DNA from: Halorubrum rubrum
GTDB lineage: Archaea; Halobacteriota; Halobacteria; Halobacteriales; Haloferacaceae
Assembly: GCF_024494685.1 (NCBI RefSeq)
Contig: NZ_JANHDM010000006.1
Coordinates: forward strand, 124,001-188,000
DNA: 64,000 nt
Reading direction: 5' to 3'
Below the pieces are notes generated by a model. It was not told the origin of the DNA. It saw only the letters and a program-made list of their open reading frames with translations, and searched no databases. Positions 3,754 through 46,334 of the stretch are shown here, piece after piece. Both the position numbers and the translations under genes were made by a program. How positions within the stretch are numbered: the stretch's first letter is position 1; each line of letters starts with the position of its first letter.

Positions 3754-5283
3754 TCACTCGTCCGCGCCGCCGTCGGCGAGTTCGTCGCGGACGCGCGACT
3801 CCGCCCGGCGGAGCACCTCGCGGACGGGGAGGTTCGTCTCGGCGGCGACCGTTTCCGCCTCGTCGTACTCGGCGCTCACGTCGTAGACGTCGCCGTCGGC
3901 AGTCGAGGCCACCTTCACCGACACCTCGTGGTCGATCCCGTCGACCGAGACGATCGCGGTCTCGAAGGCGCGCTCGGCGATCCAGCGGTGGCTCGCGCCC
4001 GCCTGTCGCACGCCGAGCGTGCCGGTCTCCCGAGCGAGCCGCTCCGCGACCGCCGCCGCGTCCGTCGGCTTACAGATCACCTTCACGAGGTGGCCCGGCC
4101 GCGACTTCTTCATCGTCGTCGGCACGATCGTCACGTCGAGAGCGCCGGTCGCCGCGAGCGATTCCTGGAGCCCGCCGAGCACCTCCGGCGCGGCGTCGTC
4201 GAGGTTGGTCTCCAGCACCGCGACGTCGTCGCCGACGAGCCCTCCGGATCCGGAGCCGTGTGCGTGGGCGTCCTCCGCCGTCTCTTCGTCGCCGGCTTTC
4301 CCGCTCTCCTCGCCGCCGTCGCCGACGATCGCCCGGAGCACGTTCGGGTGGCGGTCGAAGGTCGCGTCGCCCGCGCCGTACCCCGCACCGTCGACGCGGA
4401 GCGCCGGCAACGCGTCGACGCCATCGGCGACGGCACCGAGGATCGCCGCGCCGGTCGGCGTCAGCAGCTCGCGATCGATCGGACCGCCGACGAGCGTGAG
4501 GCCGGCGCGCTCCGCGATCCCGACCACCGCCGGGGCCGGGACCGGATAGACGCCGTGAGCCATTTCGACCTCGCCGCCGCCCGCCGCAAGCGGCGTGGTG
4601 ACGACCCGATCGACGTCGAGGTCGTCCAAGAGCAGCATCGCGCCGACGATGTCGGCGACGGCGTCGTCCGCGCCCACCTCGTGGAATGCCGTCTCCTCGA
4701 GGTCGGTCCCGTGAGTCGACGCCTCGGCCCGGCCGAGCAGTTCGAAGGCCTCGAGCGCGGTCGCCTCGACCGCCGCGGGCAGGTCCATCGACTCGACGAC
4801 CTCGACGACCTCCGGGTAGGTTCGATGGACGCCGGCTCCCTCAGCGTGGGTGTGCCCGTGGCCGTGTTCGTGGGTGTGGCCGTGGTCGTGGGTGTGGTCG
4901 TGGTCGTGAGTGTGGTCGTGATCGTCGGAATGGTCGTGGGTGTGGTCGTGGCCGTGATCGTGGTCGTGGCCGTGGTCGTGGTCGTGGCCGTGGTCGTGGT
5001 CGTGGCCGTGGTCGTGGTCGTGGCCGTGGTCGTGGTCGTGGCCGTGGTCGTGGTCGTGAGTGTGGGCGTCGACGTCGGGATCGTCCCGCTCGTCCTCCTC
5101 GAGGAGTATGTCGACGCTGGTCGCTCGAATTCCGTTTTTCATCGTCTCGCCGACCTCGTAGCGGACGGGAAGCCGCTCCTCGACCGGGTCGAGCACCGCG
5201 GCGTCGGCACCGGCCGCGATCAGCGCGGCACAGATCATGTCGCCGGCCGCGCCGGTCCGACCGTCGAAAGCGAGCGTGCGCAT
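3754..5283 (-). CDS. larC: LarC-type nickel insertion protein (DUF111) with very long His tract
   Basis: LarC inserts nickel into the pincer cofactor of lactate racemase and related enzymes. The 509-residue product starts MRTLAFDGRTGAAGDM, the conserved LarC N-terminus. The core motifs include EVGADDAVADIVGA, LTPTGAAILG and the C-terminal VLETNLDDAAPEVLGGL. Residues about 73-150 form a low-complexity tract of Asp-His-Gly-His repeats, far longer than the short His loop of most family members and suited to nickel storage. I placed the start at 5283 rather than at a longer upstream option because a TATA-like element (5305-5311 on the opposite strand reading) lies about 25 bases ahead, which suggests a leaderless mRNA. 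No larB or larE is visible nearby. Confidence 0.9.
   Translation of the reverse strand: MRTLAFDGRTGAAGDMICAALIAAGADAAVLDPVEERLPVRYEVGETMKNGIRATSVDILLEEDERDDPDVDAHTHDHDHGHDHDHGHDHDHGHDHDHGHDHDHGHDHDHGHDHTHDHSDDHDHTHDHDHTHDHGHTHEHGHGHTHAEGAGVHRTYPEVVEVVESMDLPAAVEATALEAFELLGRAEASTHGTDLEETAFHEVGADDAVADIVGAMLLLDDLDVDRVVTTPLAAGGGEVEMAHGVYPVPAPAVVGIAERAGLTLVGGPIDRELLTPTGAAILGAVADGVDALPALRVDGAGYGAGDATFDRHPNVLRAIVGDGGEESGKAGDEETAEDAHAHGSGSGGLVGDDVAVLETNLDDAAPEVLGGLQESLAATGALDVTIVPTTMKKSRPGHLVKVICKPTDAAAVAERLARETGTLGVRQAGASHRWIAERAFETAIVSVDGIDHEVSVKVASTADGDVYDVSAEYDEAETVAAETNLPVREVLRRAESRVRDELADGGADE
4842..5072 (-). repeat. 18-bp tandem repeat encoding the His tract of LarC
   Basis: Inside larC the plus strand repeats the 18-mer GTGGTCGTGGTCGTGGCC about five to six times almost perfectly between about 4958 and 5056. 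Degenerate copies extend the tract on both sides. On the coding strand each unit reads Gly-His-Asp-His-Asp-His. Near-perfect nucleotide identity between units indicates recent expansion, and the copy number probably varies between strains. Confidence 0.85.
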
Positions 5284-5583
5284 GCGAACACGCACGCGGC
5301 CGACCAATAAAGAGCCGTCCCACTCGGCGAGGGAGCCGTTCCGCCCGACGCGTCCGCCCCACAGCTCCCCGACCGCGGGTCGTCGGCTCGGGAGTCGGCA
5401 CGGATCGGCGGCCACTACACGGGGTATCAATCAGATGCCGAGAACGATCCGGGAGGAGCGAACGCCGCCGACACGCCGGGAGGCGTCGCTCTCGGCGCGC
5501 CCGTCTGTCAGGGACGTTCAGTATGTCCGATCGCTGTGGTTTCCGAACACCTAAGCCCGAAGTGGCCGAGTCGGGAAGTAACG
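5284..5583. promoter_or_regulatory. Divergent promoter region larC / amylase
   Basis: The minus-strand TATA-like TCTTTATTGG near 5305-5313 lies the right distance from the larC ATG for a leaderless transcript. Toward the amylase gene, a short CACCTAAGCC at about 5548 is the only weak TATA-like candidate close to the ATG at 5584. No gene-like reading frame was found in this region. Confidence 0.4.
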
Positions 5584-7572
5584 ATGGACCACCCAGGCCC
5601 GCCGCAGTTCGTCGCCGTCGGCGACGCGGTACAGTTAGCGCCACGCGACCCCGATCCCGAGGCCACCTACCGGTGGACGGTCACCGAGGCACCGATCGCG
5701 AGCGAGGCGACCGTCGACGACGGGGCGGTCGAGGAGTTCGTTCCCGACGTACCCGGCCGCTACCGGCTCACGCTCGAAACCCCCGAGGGACGACACCACC
5801 TGACGGTCCGGGTCTTTCCGGGCGACCACAGGCCCACCGGCGAGGGAGCCGGCGGAGCCGGAGCCGCCGGCCGGAGCGGATACAGCGGGAAGAGCGGGTA
5901 CAGCGGACGGAGCGGCTCCGCCCGCGGGAGCGGCGGGAAGAGCGGTCCCGTCTCGGGATCCGGCTCGGGTGCGCGAGAGCAGCCGCCGGAACACGAGGAC
6001 GGCCGGCCGCGGGTCAGGCTCAACGCCGAGATCGAGGCCGACGAGGCGGTCGTCCGCGCGACGCCGACCCCGCATCCGGACTCGTCGCGGGACCCGAGCG
6101 ACCTCGACGTGGAGTTCCTCCTCGACGACCGCGACGGCGTGACTCGCGGCGACGTGACGGTCGACGACCGCGAGCTTCGCGTCCCGCTCGCGGCGATCGA
6201 CGAGCGGGTCCGGGTCCACGGGGTCGCCGTCGGCGCGAGCTACAGCGTCGCCGACGCGGTGAGCGTCGACCGGCTCGGCGACGGCGACGACGTCGGGGTC
6301 ACGCGACTCAACGACCCGCCGGCGTGGGCCACGGACGCCACGCTGTACGAGATCTACGTCCGGGGGTACGCGGCCGACGACGACGAGGCCGAGACCACCT
6401 TCGAGGCGCTCGAGAAGCGGCTCGACTACCTCGAGGAGCTCGGCGTGGACACGCTGTGGCTCACGCCGGTGCTCCAACACGACGGCGCGCCCCACGGCTA
6501 CAACATCACGGACTTCTTCTCCATCGCCGACGATCTCGGCGACCGCGAGGACTACGAGGCGTTCGTCGACGCGGCCCACGACCGGGGCATGAGGGTGCTC
6601 TTCGACCTCGTGTTGAACCACTCCGCGCGCGATCACGAGTGGTTCCGGGACGCCTACCGGAACCCCGACTCGCCGTACCGCGACCGATACGAGTGGCAGG
6701 AGTCGGGCGAGCCGGGCACCTACTTCGACTGGGAGCTCATCGCCAACTTCGATTTCACCAGCCTCGAGGTCCGCCGGCACCTCCTCGAAGCCGCCGACAC
6801 GTGGGCCGCGGTCGCGGACGGGTTCCGGTGTGACATGGCGTGGGCGGTGCCGGAGTCGTTCTGGAAGGAACTCAGGGAGCGACTCAAGGCCGAGGATCCG
6901 GAGTTCCTGCTGCTCGACGAAACGATCCCGTACATCGCCGACTTCCACGAGGGGATGTTCGACGTCCACTTCGACACCACGCTGTATTTCGCCCTCCGGC
7001 AGGTCGGCCGCGGCCACGAGCCGGCCGACTCCCTGCTCGAGGCGGTCGAGGGCCGGGCGCGCTCCGGCTTCCCGGACCACGCCGCGTTCATGCTCTACTT
7101 AGAGAACCACGACGAGACGCGGTACCTCGTCGAGTGCGGCGACGACGCCGCGAAGGCCGCCGCCGGCGCGCTGTTCACCCTCCCAGGGGTCCCGATGCTC
7201 TACGGCGGCCAGGAGCTCGGCCAGCGGGGCAACCGCGACCCGCTCGCGTGGGATCACGCCCGCGAGGACGTCCGTGCGCACTACGACGACCTGCTCGCGC
7301 TCCGGGAGGCGCATCCGGTCCTCGGGTCCGCCGGCGATCTCGCTCGCGTCGACCACGAGACGGCGGGGTCGGCCGACCCCGACGACGTCGTGGCCTTCGC
7401 CCGCGAGGGGGAGGCGGCGAGCTACGTCGTGCTGCTCAACTTCGGTCCCGAAACCGCCGTCGTCGGGATCGACGAGGCGGTCGACGCGACCGACCTCGTC
7501 TCCGGCGAGTCGCGGGCGGCGGCGGAGGGACTGACCGTCGAGGACGTCGCGGTCTTCGAAGTCGCGGACTGA
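5584..7572 (+). CDS. GH13 alpha-amylase family glycosidase
   Basis: A 662-residue alpha-glucan-acting enzyme, without an evident signal peptide and therefore probably cytoplasmic. The four GH13 regions are present: DLVLNH (region I), GFRCDMAW with the nucleophile Asp (II), LLLDETIP with the acid/base Glu (III) and LENHDE with the transition-state Asp (IV). The N-terminal 80 residues look like a beta-sandwich module (YRWTVTEAPIASEA to YRLTLETPEGRHHLTV). They are joined by an unusual Gly/Ser/Arg-rich linker (about residues 80-135, repeats such as YSGKSGYSGRSGS) to a second module and then the catalytic barrel from about residue 255. The start at 5584 was preferred over one 48 bases upstream because the protein then begins MDHPGPPQF. 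Substrate specificity is not determined. Confidence 0.9.
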   Translation: MDHPGPPQFVAVGDAVQLAPRDPDPEATYRWTVTEAPIASEATVDDGAVEEFVPDVPGRYRLTLETPEGRHHLTVRVFPGDHRPTGEGAGGAGAAGRSGYSGKSGYSGRSGSARGSGGKSGPVSGSGSGAREQPPEHEDGRPRVRLNAEIEADEAVVRATPTPHPDSSRDPSDLDVEFLLDDRDGVTRGDVTVDDRELRVPLAAIDERVRVHGVAVGASYSVADAVSVDRLGDGDDVGVTRLNDPPAWATDATLYEIYVRGYAADDDEAETTFEALEKRLDYLEELGVDTLWLTPVLQHDGAPHGYNITDFFSIADDLGDREDYEAFVDAAHDRGMRVLFDLVLNHSARDHEWFRDAYRNPDSPYRDRYEWQESGEPGTYFDWELIANFDFTSLEVRRHLLEAADTWAAVADGFRCDMAWAVPESFWKELRERLKAEDPEFLLLDETIPYIADFHEGMFDVHFDTTLYFALRQVGRGHEPADSLLEAVEGRARSGFPDHAAFMLYLENHDETRYLVECGDDAAKAAAGALFTLPGVPMLYGGQELGQRGNRDPLAWDHAREDVRAHYDDLLALREAHPVLGSAGDLARVDHETAGSADPDDVVAFAREGEAASYVVLLNFGPETAVVGIDEAVDATDLVSGESRAAAEGLTVEDVAVFEVAD

Positions 7573-40319: not shown

Positions 40320-41636
40320 ATGTCATACCACAAGAGACGGCGTGACGTGCTGAAGGGGATCGGCGTTGCCGGCGCGGTCAGCGTCGCCGGCTGTTCGGGC
40401 GGTGGCGGTGGCGACGGAGGCGGGGGCGGCAGCGGGCCGGATCTCCTCACCGTCATCGGCTACCCGGAAAGCGGCATTCAGCTCTTCCGTGACTACTACA
40501 GCGCGTCCGACGGGGCGGAGGAAATCCTCATCCCCGACGGCCTCCAGGACCCCGCGTTACCCGGCCAGGTCGGCAACGACATGAACAACGTCACCGGCAC
40601 CGCGCCGGCGGCGGGCGGGCCGAACCAGGAGGCGTTCGAGAGCCTGTATCAGGACGCCTACGACGAGTCGCCCGGCGTGTTCACCTCGCAGTCGTACGAC
40701 TCGGCCGCCGCGTTGATCCTCGCGAACGTCGCCGCGGGCGAGAACGACGGTACCGCGATCCGCGACCAGCTCCGACGCATCGCGAATCCGGGTGGCACCG
40801 AGTACGGTCCGGAGGGCTTCCTCGACGCGGTCGAGGCGGTCGCGAACGGCGAGGACATCAACTACCAGGGCGCATCGAGCGCGGTCAACTTCGACGAAAA
40901 CGGCGATCCGGCGTCCGCGGCCTACTCCATCTGGGAGTTCGCCGGGCAGGACGCGGACTCCGTGGACGTCGCCGAGACCCAGAACTTCGAGGGGTCGAAC
41001 CCCGACGGCACGGGTCCCTCCGCCGACTCCTCGCCCGGCGGGCTCGGCCGCGAAGTGAGCGTCGGGATCCTGCTTCCCGAGACGGGCGACTTGGCGTCGA
41101 CGGGTCAGCCGATGATCCGTGCCGCCGAACTTCCGGCCCAGCAGGTCAACGACTCCGACCTCGACCTCACCGTGAACGCCCAGTTCGAGGACACCAACAC
41201 CTCCCCCGACCAGGGGGTCAGCGGCGCCGAGTCGCTGATCAGTTCGGGCGTCCCGGCGGTGTGCGGAACCGCCTCCTCCGGCGTGAACGTCCCGGTGTGT
41301 CAGGAGACGCTCATCCCGAACGAGGTCGTCGGCTGTTCGCCGTCCAGCACCGCGCTGTCGGTGACGAACCTCGAGGACGACGACTACATCTTCCGGACCG
41401 CCCCGAGCGACCAGCTCCAGGGACGGGTGATGGCGCAGGTCGCCTCCGAGCGGCTCGAAGCCGAGACCGCCGCGACGCTGTACGTGAACAACGACTACGG
41501 ACAGCAGCTCTCGGAGCGGTTCAGCGAGGTCTTCGAGGACGAGTTCGACGGCGAGGTGTACGACCAGATCAGCTTCAACATCGGTGAGTCCTCGTACTCC
41601 AACGTCATCGAACAGGCGCTCTCGAGCGGGAACTGA
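40320..41636 (+). CDS. livJ: Branched-chain amino-acid ABC transporter binding protein, lobes in permuted order
   Basis: A 438-residue Tat-exported lipoprotein: RRRDVLKG twin-arginine motif, hydrophobic stretch, lipobox SVAGC with Cys25, then a Gly-rich spacer. In family members the mature protein starts with the N-lobe (VSVGILLPETGDLASTG) and continues to the C-lobe (PDLLTVIGYPESG onward to NFEG). Here the order is reversed: the C-lobe occupies about residues 40-225, followed by a linker SNPDGTGPSADSSPG, and the N-lobe occupies about 242-438. The protein stops right after VIEQALSSGN, the place where the C-lobe normally follows. Both lobes look intact. It is convergent with livFGMH. The family call is firm; the permutation should be confirmed against relatives and reads. 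Confidence 0.88.
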   Translation: MSYHKRRRDVLKGIGVAGAVSVAGCSGGGGGDGGGGGSGPDLLTVIGYPESGIQLFRDYYSASDGAEEILIPDGLQDPALPGQVGNDMNNVTGTAPAAGGPNQEAFESLYQDAYDESPGVFTSQSYDSAAALILANVAAGENDGTAIRDQLRRIANPGGTEYGPEGFLDAVEAVANGEDINYQGASSAVNFDENGDPASAAYSIWEFAGQDADSVDVAETQNFEGSNPDGTGPSADSSPGGLGREVSVGILLPETGDLASTGQPMIRAAELPAQQVNDSDLDLTVNAQFEDTNTSPDQGVSGAESLISSGVPAVCGTASSGVNVPVCQETLIPNEVVGCSPSSTALSVTNLEDDDYIFRTAPSDQLQGRVMAQVASERLEAETAATLYVNNDYGQQLSERFSEVFEDEFDGEVYDQISFNIGESSYSNVIEQALSSGN

Positions 41637-41775: not shown

Positions 41776-42480
41776 TTAGCCCCCGAGGAACTCCCGGCGG
41801 ACCTCCTCGTCGTTCAACAGCGCGGTCCCCTCGTCCTCGTACCGGTTCTGGCCGTTCGATAGCACGTATCCGCGGTCACAGCGTCTGAGCGCCTCCATCG
41901 CGTTCTGTTCGACCATCAGGACCGCGGTGCCCGTTCCGTTGATCTCGTCGACCTTGTCGAACATCTCGTCGACCAGGTCGGGCGCGAGCCCCGCGCTGGG
42001 TTCGTCGAGGAGCAGGAGTTCGGGATCGAGCATCAACGCCCGCCCCATCGCGAGCATCTGTCGCTGGCCGCCGCTCATCGTTCCCGCGCGCTGTTCTCTC
42101 CGCTCTTCGAGGATCGGGAACCGGTCGTACACCATCCGGAGCGCGTCCTGTGGCACCTCATCGAGGATGTACGCGCCCATCTCGAGGTTCTCCTCGACCG
42201 AGAGCTCCGCGAAGACGTTCTCGTTTTGCGGGACGTACCCCAGTCCCTTGTGGATGACGTCCTCGGGTTTGGTGCCGCTTATGTCCTCGCCGTTGAACGT
42301 CACCGTGCCGCCCATGTGGGTCGTCAGCCCGAACACCGACTTCATCACGGTCGATTTGCCGGCCCCGTTCGGACCGACGATGGTGACGTACTCCCCGTCG
42401 TCGACGTCCAGATCGACGTCGGTGAGGATCTGGAGGTCGCCGTAGCCGGCGTCCAACTCGCGAACCTCGAGGAGGCTCAT
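41776..42480 (-). CDS. livF: Branched-chain amino-acid ABC transporter ATPase LivF
   Basis: A 234-residue ATPase with Walker A VGPNGAGKST, the short Q-loop region YVPQNENVFAELSVEENL, signature TMSGGQRQMLAMGRAL, Walker B LLLDEPSAGL and a switch region VLMVEQNAMEAL. Both the length and LEVRELDAGYGDLQIL at the N-terminus are LivF-like. It is the last gene of livHMGF, overlapping livG by four bases. It drives uptake of branched-chain amino acids or a related substrate. Confidence 0.93.
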   Translation of the reverse strand: MSLLEVRELDAGYGDLQILTDVDLDVDDGEYVTIVGPNGAGKSTVMKSVFGLTTHMGGTVTFNGEDISGTKPEDVIHKGLGYVPQNENVFAELSVEENLEMGAYILDEVPQDALRMVYDRFPILEERREQRAGTMSGGQRQMLAMGRALMLDPELLLLDEPSAGLAPDLVDEMFDKVDEINGTGTAVLMVEQNAMEALRRCDRGYVLSNGQNRYEDEGTALLNDEEVRREFLGG

Positions 42481-43457
42481 ACCTCACCCCCGAGGTACGC
42501 CTCGATGACCTCCTCGCTCTCCTTGATCTCCGCCGGGGTCCCGTCCTTCAGGATCCGGCCTTGGTGCATGACGATGACCCGCTCGCAGTTGTTCATGATG
42601 AGGTCCATGTCGTGTTCCACGATGAGGAACGTGTACCCGCGGTCGCGCAGCTCGTGGATGTGTTCGAGCAGCCGCTTCTCGAGCGTCGGGTTGACGCCCG
42701 CGAACGGCTCGTCGAGGAGCAGCACGTCGGGGTCGGTCAACAGCGCACGCGCCAGCTCCAGCAGCTTCCGCTGGCCGCCCGAGAGGTTCCCCGCGTACTC
42801 GTCGGCGAGGTGGTCGATCTCGAAGAAGTCGAGCACCTCCCAGACGCGTTCGAGCTGGTCGGTCTCCTGTTTGCGCACGTCTCCGCGAGTGACCGGCAGC
42901 ACCGACCGCCACAGCGACTCGCCGGCCTGACCCTTCGGCGCGAGCATCATGTTCTCGAGGACGGTCATCTCCTCGAGTTCGCGGGCGATCTGGAACGTCC
43001 GGACGAGCCCCCGGTTGGCTATCTCGTGGGGTTGGTAGCCGGTTATCTCCTCGCCGTTGAACCGGACCGTCCCGGCGTCGGGCTCCAACATCCCGGTGAT
43101 GAGGTTGAAGGTCGTCGACTTGCCGGCCCCGTTCGGGCCGATGAGCCCCGTGAGCGTCCCCCGTTCGACGTCGAAGCTGACGTCGTCGACGGCGACGATG
43201 CCGCCGAACGTCCGCCGGAGCCCCTCGACCTCCAGGGGCGTCGAATCGACCGACACGCCGGCGTCCTCCGGCGCGTGGACCGTTCGATCCGGCGTCTCCG
43301 CGTCGGTCGGTGCGTCCGCGTCCCCGTCCGATTCCTCCGTGACGGCCGACGGCGAGCCGTCCTCGGTCGGCACGTCCTCCGCCGGCATCGAGTCGTCCTC
43401 GATCGGTTCCTCGGTCGGCGTCGATCCGTCCGTGACGGAGTCGTCGGTGCCGCTCAT
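42477..43457 (-). CDS. livG: Branched-chain amino-acid ABC transporter ATPase LivG
   Basis: A 326-residue ATPase. The first 72 residues are a low-complexity acidic tail (Asp, Glu, Ser, Thr, Pro) not found in bacterial LivG. The ATPase domain begins about residue 73 (STPLEVEGLRRTFGG) with Walker A IGPNGAGKST, RTFQIARELEEMTV, signature LSGGQRKLLELARAL, Walker B VLLLDEPFAGVNP and EHDMDLIMNNCERVIV. It overlaps livF and livM by four bases each. A later start would remove the acidic tail, but the tight overlap with livM supports 43457. Confidence 0.92.
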   Translation of the reverse strand: MSGTDDSVTDGSTPTEEPIEDDSMPAEDVPTEDGSPSAVTEESDGDADAPTDAETPDRTVHAPEDAGVSVDSTPLEVEGLRRTFGGIVAVDDVSFDVERGTLTGLIGPNGAGKSTTFNLITGMLEPDAGTVRFNGEEITGYQPHEIANRGLVRTFQIARELEEMTVLENMMLAPKGQAGESLWRSVLPVTRGDVRKQETDQLERVWEVLDFFEIDHLADEYAGNLSGGQRKLLELARALLTDPDVLLLDEPFAGVNPTLEKRLLEHIHELRDRGYTFLIVEHDMDLIMNNCERVIVMHQGRILKDGTPAEIKESEEVIEAYLGGEV

Positions 43458-44845
43458 CGCGTCTCACCACCGTCTGCCGCGGCCGGATTCCCGCTCGACC
43501 CGTCGTCTCCCGGCCGCGAGAGGTCGACGCTGGAGGCGGTCTCCTTGCGGTGGCCGAGCAGCCCCTCGGGCCGGTTGTGCATCAGCCAGATCAACACTAC
43601 GCCCATGATCACGAGCCGCAGCTGGCTCACGCTGTCGAGGGTGTAGACGAGGAACGGAACGGGATCGAGCGAGGCCAGCGGCGCGACCGCCTCGCCGAAG
43701 TTCCGCGGCGCGTCGCCCAGCTCGAAGGCGGCCTCGACCAGGTTCTTCACGTACCGCGGCCCCTCGTACAACACCCCGGCGAAGATCGCCCCGCCGAGGA
43801 AGCTGCCGGTGTTCGAGCCCGCGCCGCCGATGATGAGCGCGATCCACACGAAGAAGGTGATGTTCGGCCGGAACGAGGGCGGCGTGATGCTCCCGCGACC
43901 GGAGTACCAGAGGATCCCGCCGAGCCCCATCAGCGCCGCGCCGAGCACGAACGCCGTGAGCTTGAAGCGGTCGGTGTCCTTCCCCAGGGCGTTCGCGACG
44001 TCCTCGTCCTCGCGGATGGCCTTCAACACCCGGCCGAACGGCGACTTTCCGGTCCGCGAGAGCAACAGGTAGAACAGCCCCACGCAGACGAGGAGGACGA
44101 TCCCGTAGACGACCCCGTCTATCACCGGCTTCGGGTTGTTCGGGATGAAGTTCCGCTCGACGAACGCGACGAAGCCGAGGTACGGCTCCCAGAGGAACAG
44201 GAGCCGAAGCAGCGCCTCCAGCGGGTCCGTGTAGTTCAGGATGAGCCCGCCCCCGCCGCCGAGGCCGATCGTGTCGGCGGCCGGGTCGAAGCTGAACAGT
44301 CGGACCCCGGCGACGGTGAGGTCGATCGTGTCCGGAACGGTGGCCTCCTGGAACGTCCGGGACATCATCGTGAACCGAACGATCTCCGAGAACGCCACCG
44401 TGACGATCGCGAGGTAGTCGGCCCGGAGCCGGAGCGCGGGCAGCGCGACCAGGAGGCCGAACAGCGCGGCCACGGCGACGCCGGCGACGACGCCGACGAC
44501 GAGCGGGAGGCCGAGCCCGCCGACCTGTGCGGCACCGCCCTCCGCCACCGGCGGCTTCGAGACGAGCGCGGTGACGTAGACGCCGATACCCATGAAGCCG
44601 ACGATGCCGATGTTGAAGAGGCCGGTGTACCCCCAGTGGAGGTTCAACGCCAGCGCGAGCATGCCGAACGCGCCGATGTAGAAGGTGAGGTTCGCGATCG
44701 AGTTCAGCTGACCGCGGAGGCCGTAGCCGAACGCGACGCCGGCGAGGACGTACGCCAGGTAGATCGCGCCGAGAACCGCGAGCACGAGCGTCACGTCGCG
44801 CTCGAAGAGTCCGTCGAGCCGACCGCGAACGTCGTCCACGCTCAT
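43454..44845 (-). CDS. livM: Branched-chain amino-acid ABC transporter permease LivM
   Basis: A 463-residue polytopic permease with about nine to ten helices. The LivM core is recognisable in FNIGIVGFMGIGVYVTALVS, ADYLAIVTVAFSEIVRFTM, the cytoplasmic coupling loop SPFGRVLKAIREDEDVANAL and LMGLGGILWYSGRGSI. It is longer than bacterial LivM through a loop insertion at about 180-260. The C-terminal tail (RPEGLLGHRKE onward) is hydrophilic. It is encoded between livH and livG with four-base overlaps. Confidence 0.92.
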   Translation of the reverse strand: MSVDDVRGRLDGLFERDVTLVLAVLGAIYLAYVLAGVAFGYGLRGQLNSIANLTFYIGAFGMLALALNLHWGYTGLFNIGIVGFMGIGVYVTALVSKPPVAEGGAAQVGGLGLPLVVGVVAGVAVAALFGLLVALPALRLRADYLAIVTVAFSEIVRFTMMSRTFQEATVPDTIDLTVAGVRLFSFDPAADTIGLGGGGGLILNYTDPLEALLRLLFLWEPYLGFVAFVERNFIPNNPKPVIDGVVYGIVLLVCVGLFYLLLSRTGKSPFGRVLKAIREDEDVANALGKDTDRFKLTAFVLGAALMGLGGILWYSGRGSITPPSFRPNITFFVWIALIIGGAGSNTGSFLGGAIFAGVLYEGPRYVKNLVEAAFELGDAPRNFGEAVAPLASLDPVPFLVYTLDSVSQLRLVIMGVVLIWLMHNRPEGLLGHRKETASSVDLSRPGDDGSSGNPAAADGGETR

Positions 44846-45954
44846 GCCGTGGTCCTCCCGCTGAAGATGCCTTCAGGCTTGAACAACAGGATCACGATCA
44901 TCACCATGAACGCGGCCGCCCGTCCGAACTCCGAGGGGATCCAGATCACGGACACCGAAGCGGTCAGCCCGATGACGATGCCGCCGCCGATCGCCCCGTA
45001 GATCGACCCGATGCCGCCGAGGATGACCGCGGCGAACACCAACAACAACAGGAGCCAGCCGTCGTTGAATCCAAGCGTCCCCTTCCAGAGGACGAACATG
45101 TATCCCGCGACGCCGGTGAGCCCGGCGCCGACGATCCACGTCGTGCGAATGACTCGCTCGGTCGGGATCCCCGTGATTCGCGCGAGGTCCTCGTTGTCGG
45201 ACATCGCGCGCATCGCCTTTCCGAGTTTGGTCCGCTGTAAGAGCAGGTGGACGCCGAGCATCAGTCCGGCCGCGACGAGGATGAGGGTGACGTCGTGGGC
45301 GGTGACCCGGAAGGTCCCGTCGAACGCGGGTACGTCCACGCGGGGCACGGACCCAGACGCGGTCGTCCCGCGCACGCCGGCCCCGAAGACGAACTGGATG
45401 AGGTACCGGAGCGCGAACGCGACGCCGATGCTCGTGATGAGCAGCGCGATGCCGCTCTCGTCCCGGATCGGCTTGTACACGAACCGGTCGATGAAAAGCG
45501 CCAGCGCGATCGTCAACCCGCCGGCGACGAGCGCGCCGAGGACGACCGCGGCCGGCGACGTGGTGACGCCGATCCCGAGCGCGCCGCCGAACACCGAGCC
45601 GCCGGCACCGACGAGCAACAGCGCGCCGACGCTGTTCTCGCCGATCCCCGCGACGAGGTAGCTGGTGGCCATCCCGGCGAACGCCCCGCTCGTGAGGTAG
45701 TCGCCGTGCGCGAAGTTCGCGAAGTTGAGAATACTGTACGTCATCGAGAGTCCGATTCCAGCCAGGCCGATGATCAGCCCCCGAAGCAACCCGTCCCAGA
45801 CGAGCGAGGCGAGGCTGCTGATCCGGATCCCCCCCGTCGCGAGTCCGCTCGCGAGGGACCAGGCCATCCACAGGGCCACGAGAACGACCCCGATGGCGAG
45901 GGGTTCCTCGCTGAGGGTTCGGCGGTATCGGACGTACGTTTCAGAGATACTCAC
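44842..45954 (-). CDS. livH: Branched-chain amino-acid ABC transporter permease LivH
   Basis: A 370-residue polytopic permease, first gene of the livHMGF operon. LivH motifs: GLIIGLAGIGLSMTYSILNF, ANFAHGDYLTSGAFAGM, the coupling loop LGKAMRAMSDNEDLARITGI and VILGGIGSIYGAIGGGIVIG. The start is a GTG at 45954 (VSISETYVRYRR). Upstream in-frame sequence is unlike the family, and a minus-strand TATA (CTTATAC, about 45992-45998) lies about 40 bases ahead. The last four bases overlap livM. Confidence 0.9.
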   Translation of the reverse strand: MSISETYVRYRRTLSEEPLAIGVVLVALWMAWSLASGLATGGIRISSLASLVWDGLLRGLIIGLAGIGLSMTYSILNFANFAHGDYLTSGAFAGMATSYLVAGIGENSVGALLLVGAGGSVFGGALGIGVTTSPAAVVLGALVAGGLTIALALFIDRFVYKPIRDESGIALLITSIGVAFALRYLIQFVFGAGVRGTTASGSVPRVDVPAFDGTFRVTAHDVTLILVAAGLMLGVHLLLQRTKLGKAMRAMSDNEDLARITGIPTERVIRTTWIVGAGLTGVAGYMFVLWKGTLGFNDGWLLLLLVFAAVILGGIGSIYGAIGGGIVIGLTASVSVIWIPSEFGRAAAFMVMIVILLFKPEGIFSGRTTA

Positions 45955-46334
45955 GTGATAACACTCCTCAGACGATCCTGTGAAATCAACGTATAAGACG
46001 TTTTCTACCTCCCAGCCGGGGCGACGGGGGCGGCGTCCGGCATATTTGTCCACGTCGGACCCACGAAGACGGAGACACGCCGGGAGGGACGCTCGAGCGG
46101 CGACCGCCCGACGTGACTCACCGCCGCGGTCCACGAGACGTACAAGGCGACGCGCCGGGTCAACGAGAGAGAGGGACACGCCGCGGCGCTCGTCACGTAC
46201 TGGACGCGTCTCAACGACGGGGAGGACCGGTTCGCCCCCGCGTCGGAGTCGACGAGTCTCGACCACCGATCCGAGCCGGGAGGCGACGAGCCCGCCGGAC
46301 GTAGCTATTAGTCGACCGGGACCGATCGGCCGGT
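45955..46334. other. Region between livH and an alpha/beta hydrolase
   Basis: The left part holds the livH promoter. The right part contains a short coding-like stretch (see 46113-46311). Other open frames on either strand are not supported. Confidence 0.4.
46113..46311 (+). pseudogene. Possible short frameshifted gene
   Basis: From 46117 to the TAG at 46309-46311 one frame reads TAAVHETYKATRRVNEREG, then AAALVTYWTRLNDGEDRF, with very high GC at third positions as in real genes here. The frame has a TGA at 46114 and no start codon. A GTG at 46113 lies one frame off; deleting one C in the CACCG run near 46121 would join it to give MTHAAVHETYKAT. This looks like a small gene broken by a one-base insertion, or a sequencing error. 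No family is recognised. Confidence 0.35.

Follow-up and report, generated by a model that had tools for sequence, protein, structure and literature searches.

In the window, by which we mean the whole 64,000-nucleotide stretch of Halorubrum rubrum DNA that was analysed, positions 40320-41636 (+) hold an ORF of 438 amino acids with an ATG start, in which the two halves of the LIV-type binding domain follow one another in the order B-A and not A-B. The features of the locus, each with the basis of its assignment, are as follows.

40320..40394 (+), Tat signal peptide and lipobox (Cys25), residues 1-25; translation, with a weak Pfam TAT_signal match (E 0.021)
40395..40433 (+), Gly-rich spacer behind the lipid anchor, residues 26-38; very variable in length among relatives
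40434..40997 (+), block B, residues 39-226, the canonical C-terminal half, now first; PDB alignments and AlphaFold model
40998..41048 (+), linker from the old C-terminus to the old N-terminus, residues 227-243, NPDGTGPSADSSPGGLG; about 18 residues
41049..41633 (+), block A, residues 244-438, the canonical N-terminal half, now last and reaching the stop; Pfam, PDB alignments and AlphaFold model
41776..42480 (-), ABC ATPase that we take to be livF-like by sequence recognition, convergent with the binding-protein gene; ORF, same arrangement in relatives
42477..43457 (-), livG-like ABC ATPase; ORF and relatives' layout
43454..44845 (-), livM-like permease; ORF and relatives' layout
44842..46266 (-), livH-like permease, longest ORF, the true start being probably near 45900; ORF and relatives' layout

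The halves of the binding domain and their order

The translation begins with the Tat motif KRRRDVLKG and the lipobox VAGC with Cys25, placed at the N-terminus as the preliminary description had it, and a twin-arginine motif together with a lipobox recurs in 131 of the 145 distinct permuted ORFs found over all fetched loci (collections partly redundant). The spacer behind the lipobox consists of GGD/GSD repeats of very variable length at many Halorubrum loci (e.g. L021 and L099). At one Halorussus marinus locus (L036, 4983-6308, +) the Tat motif is present with no lipobox cysteine, and the product is probably secreted free.

Strands 1-5 of the first lobe belong to block A, as do the two strand/helix units with which the second lobe begins; block B takes over at second-lobe strand 3 and continues up to and including the old C-terminus. 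Positions 1-190 of the 343 in Pfam Peripla_BP_6 aligned with window residues 245-437 (E 3.8e-31, in two stretches), and the N-terminal starts of the LIV-type proteins 4n0q, 3ip5 and 3td9 in the PDB aligned with residues 245-435 (best E 5.8e-15). The later part of 4gnr (263-315) matched window residues 102-156 in the PDB comparison, and block B searched by itself matched residues 230-323 of 3td9. These placements of the halves therefore put the swap in the window protein far beyond chance. In canonical relatives the junction reads ...ALGD-DPDVLMVVGFP..., and its two sides are found in the window protein at the C-terminus (...QALSSGN and stop) and at the start of the mature domain (GPDLLTVIGYP).

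By its family profile the protein is a LIV-type (Peripla_BP_6) binding protein, but its strand order, B-A1-A2, is not the canonical one of the type I topology, and it is hence a permuted derivative and not an ordinary LIV-type member. The product of the window gene is a LIV-type binding protein that was circularly permuted in nature. Working from the sequence by itself, the preliminary description had proposed such a permutation, with the C-lobe segment first, the N-terminal segment running last into the stop and a new linker between the old termini; Pfam, the PDB alignments and the comparison with canonical relatives bore this out, the linker is present, and the residue boundaries given were correct to within a few residues.

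The same description had suggested that the fold could survive the swapped order. AlphaFold, given the mature protein in permuted order together with 64 permuted sequences, returned a confident model (pLDDT 88.8, pTM 0.88) with the two-lobed alpha/beta fold of the solved LIV proteins, and the fold is thus predicted to be the ordinary two-lobed type I. In the predicted secondary structure the new ends fall in a loop of lobe 2, flanked by that lobe's second helix and third strand, and the linker bridges the old terminal strands. The top Foldseek matches were LIV-type (4n0q, 3td9 and 4gnr), aligned over ~195 columns, that is one half (TMq about 0.43), as is expected when a sequential aligner meets a permutant.

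Distribution and conservation of the permuted order

A scan of genome contigs led to 77 fetched loci, 68 in the B-A order, two in a third order and seven canonical. The 68 permuted loci, at 48-99% identity, come from independent public assemblies, including several complete chromosomes, of Halorubrum, Haloferax, Halobellus, Haloquadratum, Halogeometricum, Haloplanus, Halorussus, Haladaptatus, Halostella, Haloarchaeobius and other genera, and both halves are about 50-60% identical to canonical orthologues at the same locus. No permuted form from outside the order appeared among the matches listed for a 247-genome phylum sample, in which the paired halves inspected were in canonical order, and no plasmid-borne permuted copy appeared among the matches listed, which are two-piece and not one continuous match. 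Whole-ORF omega (dN/dS) against relatives was 0.06-0.33, and invariant columns are spread over both halves.

These data bear on two readings under which the order would be of little interest. An assembly error or chimeric gene in the window genome, which the preliminary description had named as the main alternative, found no support at all and is excluded for practical purposes, since the same order stands in at least 68 independently assembled loci across many genera, several of them in complete chromosomes, with both reading frame and locus conserved. That the permuted gene is a non-functional rearranged relic is also very improbable: one disrupted copy among the Halorubrum genes of group 2 (see below; L145, G029) would fit it, but the low omega across the full ORF, the invariant columns throughout both halves and the confident two-lobed predicted fold all argue against it, as does the finding that no second clear copy of the orthologue exists in the window genome. 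The novelty that had been attached to this genome in particular was not upheld, as close relatives share the B-A order. The permuted order has long been present and conserved in a large clade of haloarchaea; what is new concerns the family, in which the locus also houses canonical orthologues, the permutation apparently arose several times independently at one cut, and one lineage was cut again.

Some relatives showed peculiarities of their own. Haladaptatus genomes and those of code g46 carry two tandem permuted copies each (L056, L057, L058, L059; G064, G120, G138, G181, G185), and the second Haladaptatus copy is without the lipobox cysteine in the loci read. At L145 (2839-3942, +) the break falls within block A2 and a later piece follows about 1.4 kb on, possibly because of an insertion. 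In Halobellus captivus ZY8 (L006 versus L052) the locus and its upstream neighbours are about 84-99% identical to the Halorubrum window, unlike strain ZY21, whose copy is distant (74/71%); misnaming, contamination or transfer would account for this discrepancy.

Origins of the permuted and re-cut forms

Before tree building the protein was divided into A1, A2 and B, and these were rearranged to the canonical order. Three groups of permuted genes emerged. Group 1, the window type, forms a single clade with the re-cut form nested inside it. Group 2, from many other Halorubrum, nests with canonical genes of Natronomonas, Natronocalculus and Natronoglomus, a placement common to the whole-protein, A-only, B-only and LivHMGF trees. 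Group 3 comes from genus code g19, which we presume may be Haloarcula and where, of 26 genomes tested, 24 matched over a long stretch in permuted order; it forms a third clade among canonical genes in the protein and LivHMGF trees. Whether built from the whole protein, from A alone or from B alone, the trees kept groups 1 and 2 apart, all three groups were separate in the denser protein trees and in the LivHMGF trees, and the protein tree with canonical outgroups required a minimum of three changes between permuted and canonical order, the deep branches of the trees being only partly resolved. The cut point is the same in all three groups, and their linkers are unlike, about NPDGAGPSADSSPGGLG, ELSDEDLNATAADPVGVDEF and AGDDIPQPEPNGSGSDSG; within group 1 the linker has 14-19 residues in nearly all members and is similar in kind.

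Permuted, canonical and re-cut genes mostly occupy the same position, convergent to livF-livG-livM-livH, as the window gene does beside its LivHMGF-like neighbours. Groups 1 and 2 have the same layout relative to livFGMH in Halorubrum, and the layout of group 3 loci is identical. Since canonical orthologues stand at the equivalent place in other haloarchaea, the rearrangement most likely happened in situ, from a canonical-order gene at the orthologous locus. When neighbourhoods were compared within Halorubrum, the upstream neighbours of the window locus did not turn up beside group 2 loci, so the two groups may occupy different chromosomal addresses in that genus. A few loci, such as those of both Haloquadratum strains (L026, L028), show no operon inside the fetched flank, unlike nearly all others.

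In AU tests on the protein, placing all permuted forms in one clade was not rejected with the first, thinner set (p=0.078) and was rejected with the denser set (p=0.014), the sampling having been widened after the first of these tests. Joining groups 1 and 2 in one clade gave p=0.021, groups 2 and 3 p=0.0046, and groups 1 and 3 a borderline p=0.057. The corresponding operon values were 2.8e-63 for all permuted forms, 1.3e-68 for groups 1 and 2, 0.00067 for groups 2 and 3 and 0.0021 for groups 1 and 3; they speak strongly against one permuted clade, and they concern the operon, whose history need not match that of a binding-protein gene that could move alone. All of these p-values are optimistic because the groups were named after the trees had been seen. 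Given the post hoc groups and the possibly distinct history of the operon, we rate multiple independent origins of the permuted form as likely and go no higher. That at least three independent same-cut permutations, and one at another cut, befell one gene at one locus within one archaeal order is probable, at slightly lower confidence.

The competing account is one ancient permutation, the observed pattern reflecting errors in the trees, movement of genes from one lineage to another and a return of some genes to the canonical order. It would explain the identical cut in all three groups and agrees with the p-values of the first protein set and of groups 1 and 3 joined; transfer, moreover, probably occurs, as Halorubrum group 1 operons cluster with those of Halorussus and Halostella, members of other families. 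Against it, groups 1 and 2 separate even when each half is analysed by itself, all three separate in protein and operon trees alike, the canonical neighbours of group 2 are the same in both, and the linkers differ between groups. A reversion might also leave a linker behind, and none was seen at the C-terminus of the canonical genes read. We consider a single origin unlikely and favour several.

In two loci (L071 and L072, from MAGs QS_8_69_73 and QS_4_69_225) the gene at the same position reads signal - A2 - B - linker - A1 - stop (4860-6194, +, in L071). Its linker is of the group 1 kind, its protein nests in group 1 beside L060 (support 100/99 to 100/100), and its operon is likewise nested there. 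Lying inside group 1 and carrying its linker, the A2-B-A1 form thus represents the same closed circle opened at another point, and it derives from the group 1 arrangement by a further cut in a gene that was permuted before. It is known from these two closely related MAGs only (L147 and L197 are the L072 MAG again), and its AlphaFold model (pLDDT 30), computed from just two sequences, is uninformative. For the explanation as a whole, a LIV-type permutant of in-locus origin with probably at least three same-cut events and one later re-cut, we estimate a probability of roughly 0.83.

Precedents, proposed route and meaning

One natural precedent was found. TpMglB-2 (Tp0684) of Treponema pallidum is a natural circular permutant among the "Type Ic / Cluster Bc" binding proteins, in which the first three N-lobe strands only have moved to the end; its permuted part has 13% identity to the canonical one, experiment shows that it still binds and closes, and its authors raised tethering as a possible reason for the permutation (PMC4990184). 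Like the window protein, it is an ABC binding protein of type I that carries a lipid anchor and was permuted in nature. The two differ in family, TpMglB-2 being a bacterial sugar-binding MglB and the window protein archaeal and LIV-type, and in cut, which falls after the third N-lobe strand in the former and, in the latter, behind the second helix of lobe 2 and ahead of its third strand. TpMglB-2 is also one arrangement, whereas the haloarchaeal family includes canonical orthologues at the same locus and several indicated origins. As for a relationship to the glucose/galactose-binding MglB, none of the 33 PDB matches is named MglB, all being LIV-type and related receptors. Canonical LIV-type proteins (Peripla_BP_6; 4n0q, 3td9, 4gnr, E. 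coli LivJ/LivK) are homologous over both halves and likewise have adjacent transporter genes, but in the window protein the halves are exchanged and both termini and anchor lie on lobe 2. Engineered permuted halves of the Thermotoga ribose-binding protein demonstrate that type I lobes tolerate new termini, although those constructs are designed and single-lobed, whereas the window protein is natural and whole (PMC9815098). The portion of a review considered here covers duplication, or fission and fusion, as general routes to circular permutation and gives no binding-protein example (PMC3320104). A literature search among open-licence papers found no haloarchaeal or LIV-type permutants.

The permuted protein would be exported by the Tat pathway and then lipid-anchored at Cys25, and, judging from its sequence family, it most likely captures branched-chain or similar amino acids, the ligands known for the family, for the adjacent LivHMGF transporter. 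Its chain would start at second-lobe strand 3, pass the old C-terminus, the ~18-residue linker and the old N-terminus, and end just before its own start. The anchor would thereby have shifted from lobe 1 to lobe 2, and the lipid would pull on lobe 2 with the fold unaltered. A likely route is that the gene was duplicated in tandem, the copies fused and both ends were then trimmed back; this would account for the block order and for the linker, rich in Gly, Asp and Pro, whose source may be the spacer ahead of block A in canonical genes. Apart from the separate tandem copies of Haladaptatus-type loci, the flanks contained no half-genes, fused tandem intermediates or remnants of old gene parts. 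Perhaps the move of the anchor to lobe 2 drove the repeated permutation, or perhaps the same mutational route was taken more than once.

To our knowledge, most natural circular permutations on record are old, isolated pairs that lack both surviving intermediates and a closely related canonical orthologue. In culturable haloarchaea, by contrast, a single locus offers permuted and canonical genes, along with the re-cut form, at identities of roughly 50-75%, although the last of these comes so far from MAGs only. Experiments can thus address directly how the mutation proceeded, why one cut is preferred and what the position of the anchor does to transport. Caution is due with structure searches that depend on chain order, which align just half of such permutants. 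If the reading is true, the family would represent convergent evolution of chain topology and, as the trees suggest, an unusually clear case of a chain recut repeatedly while its fold survives.
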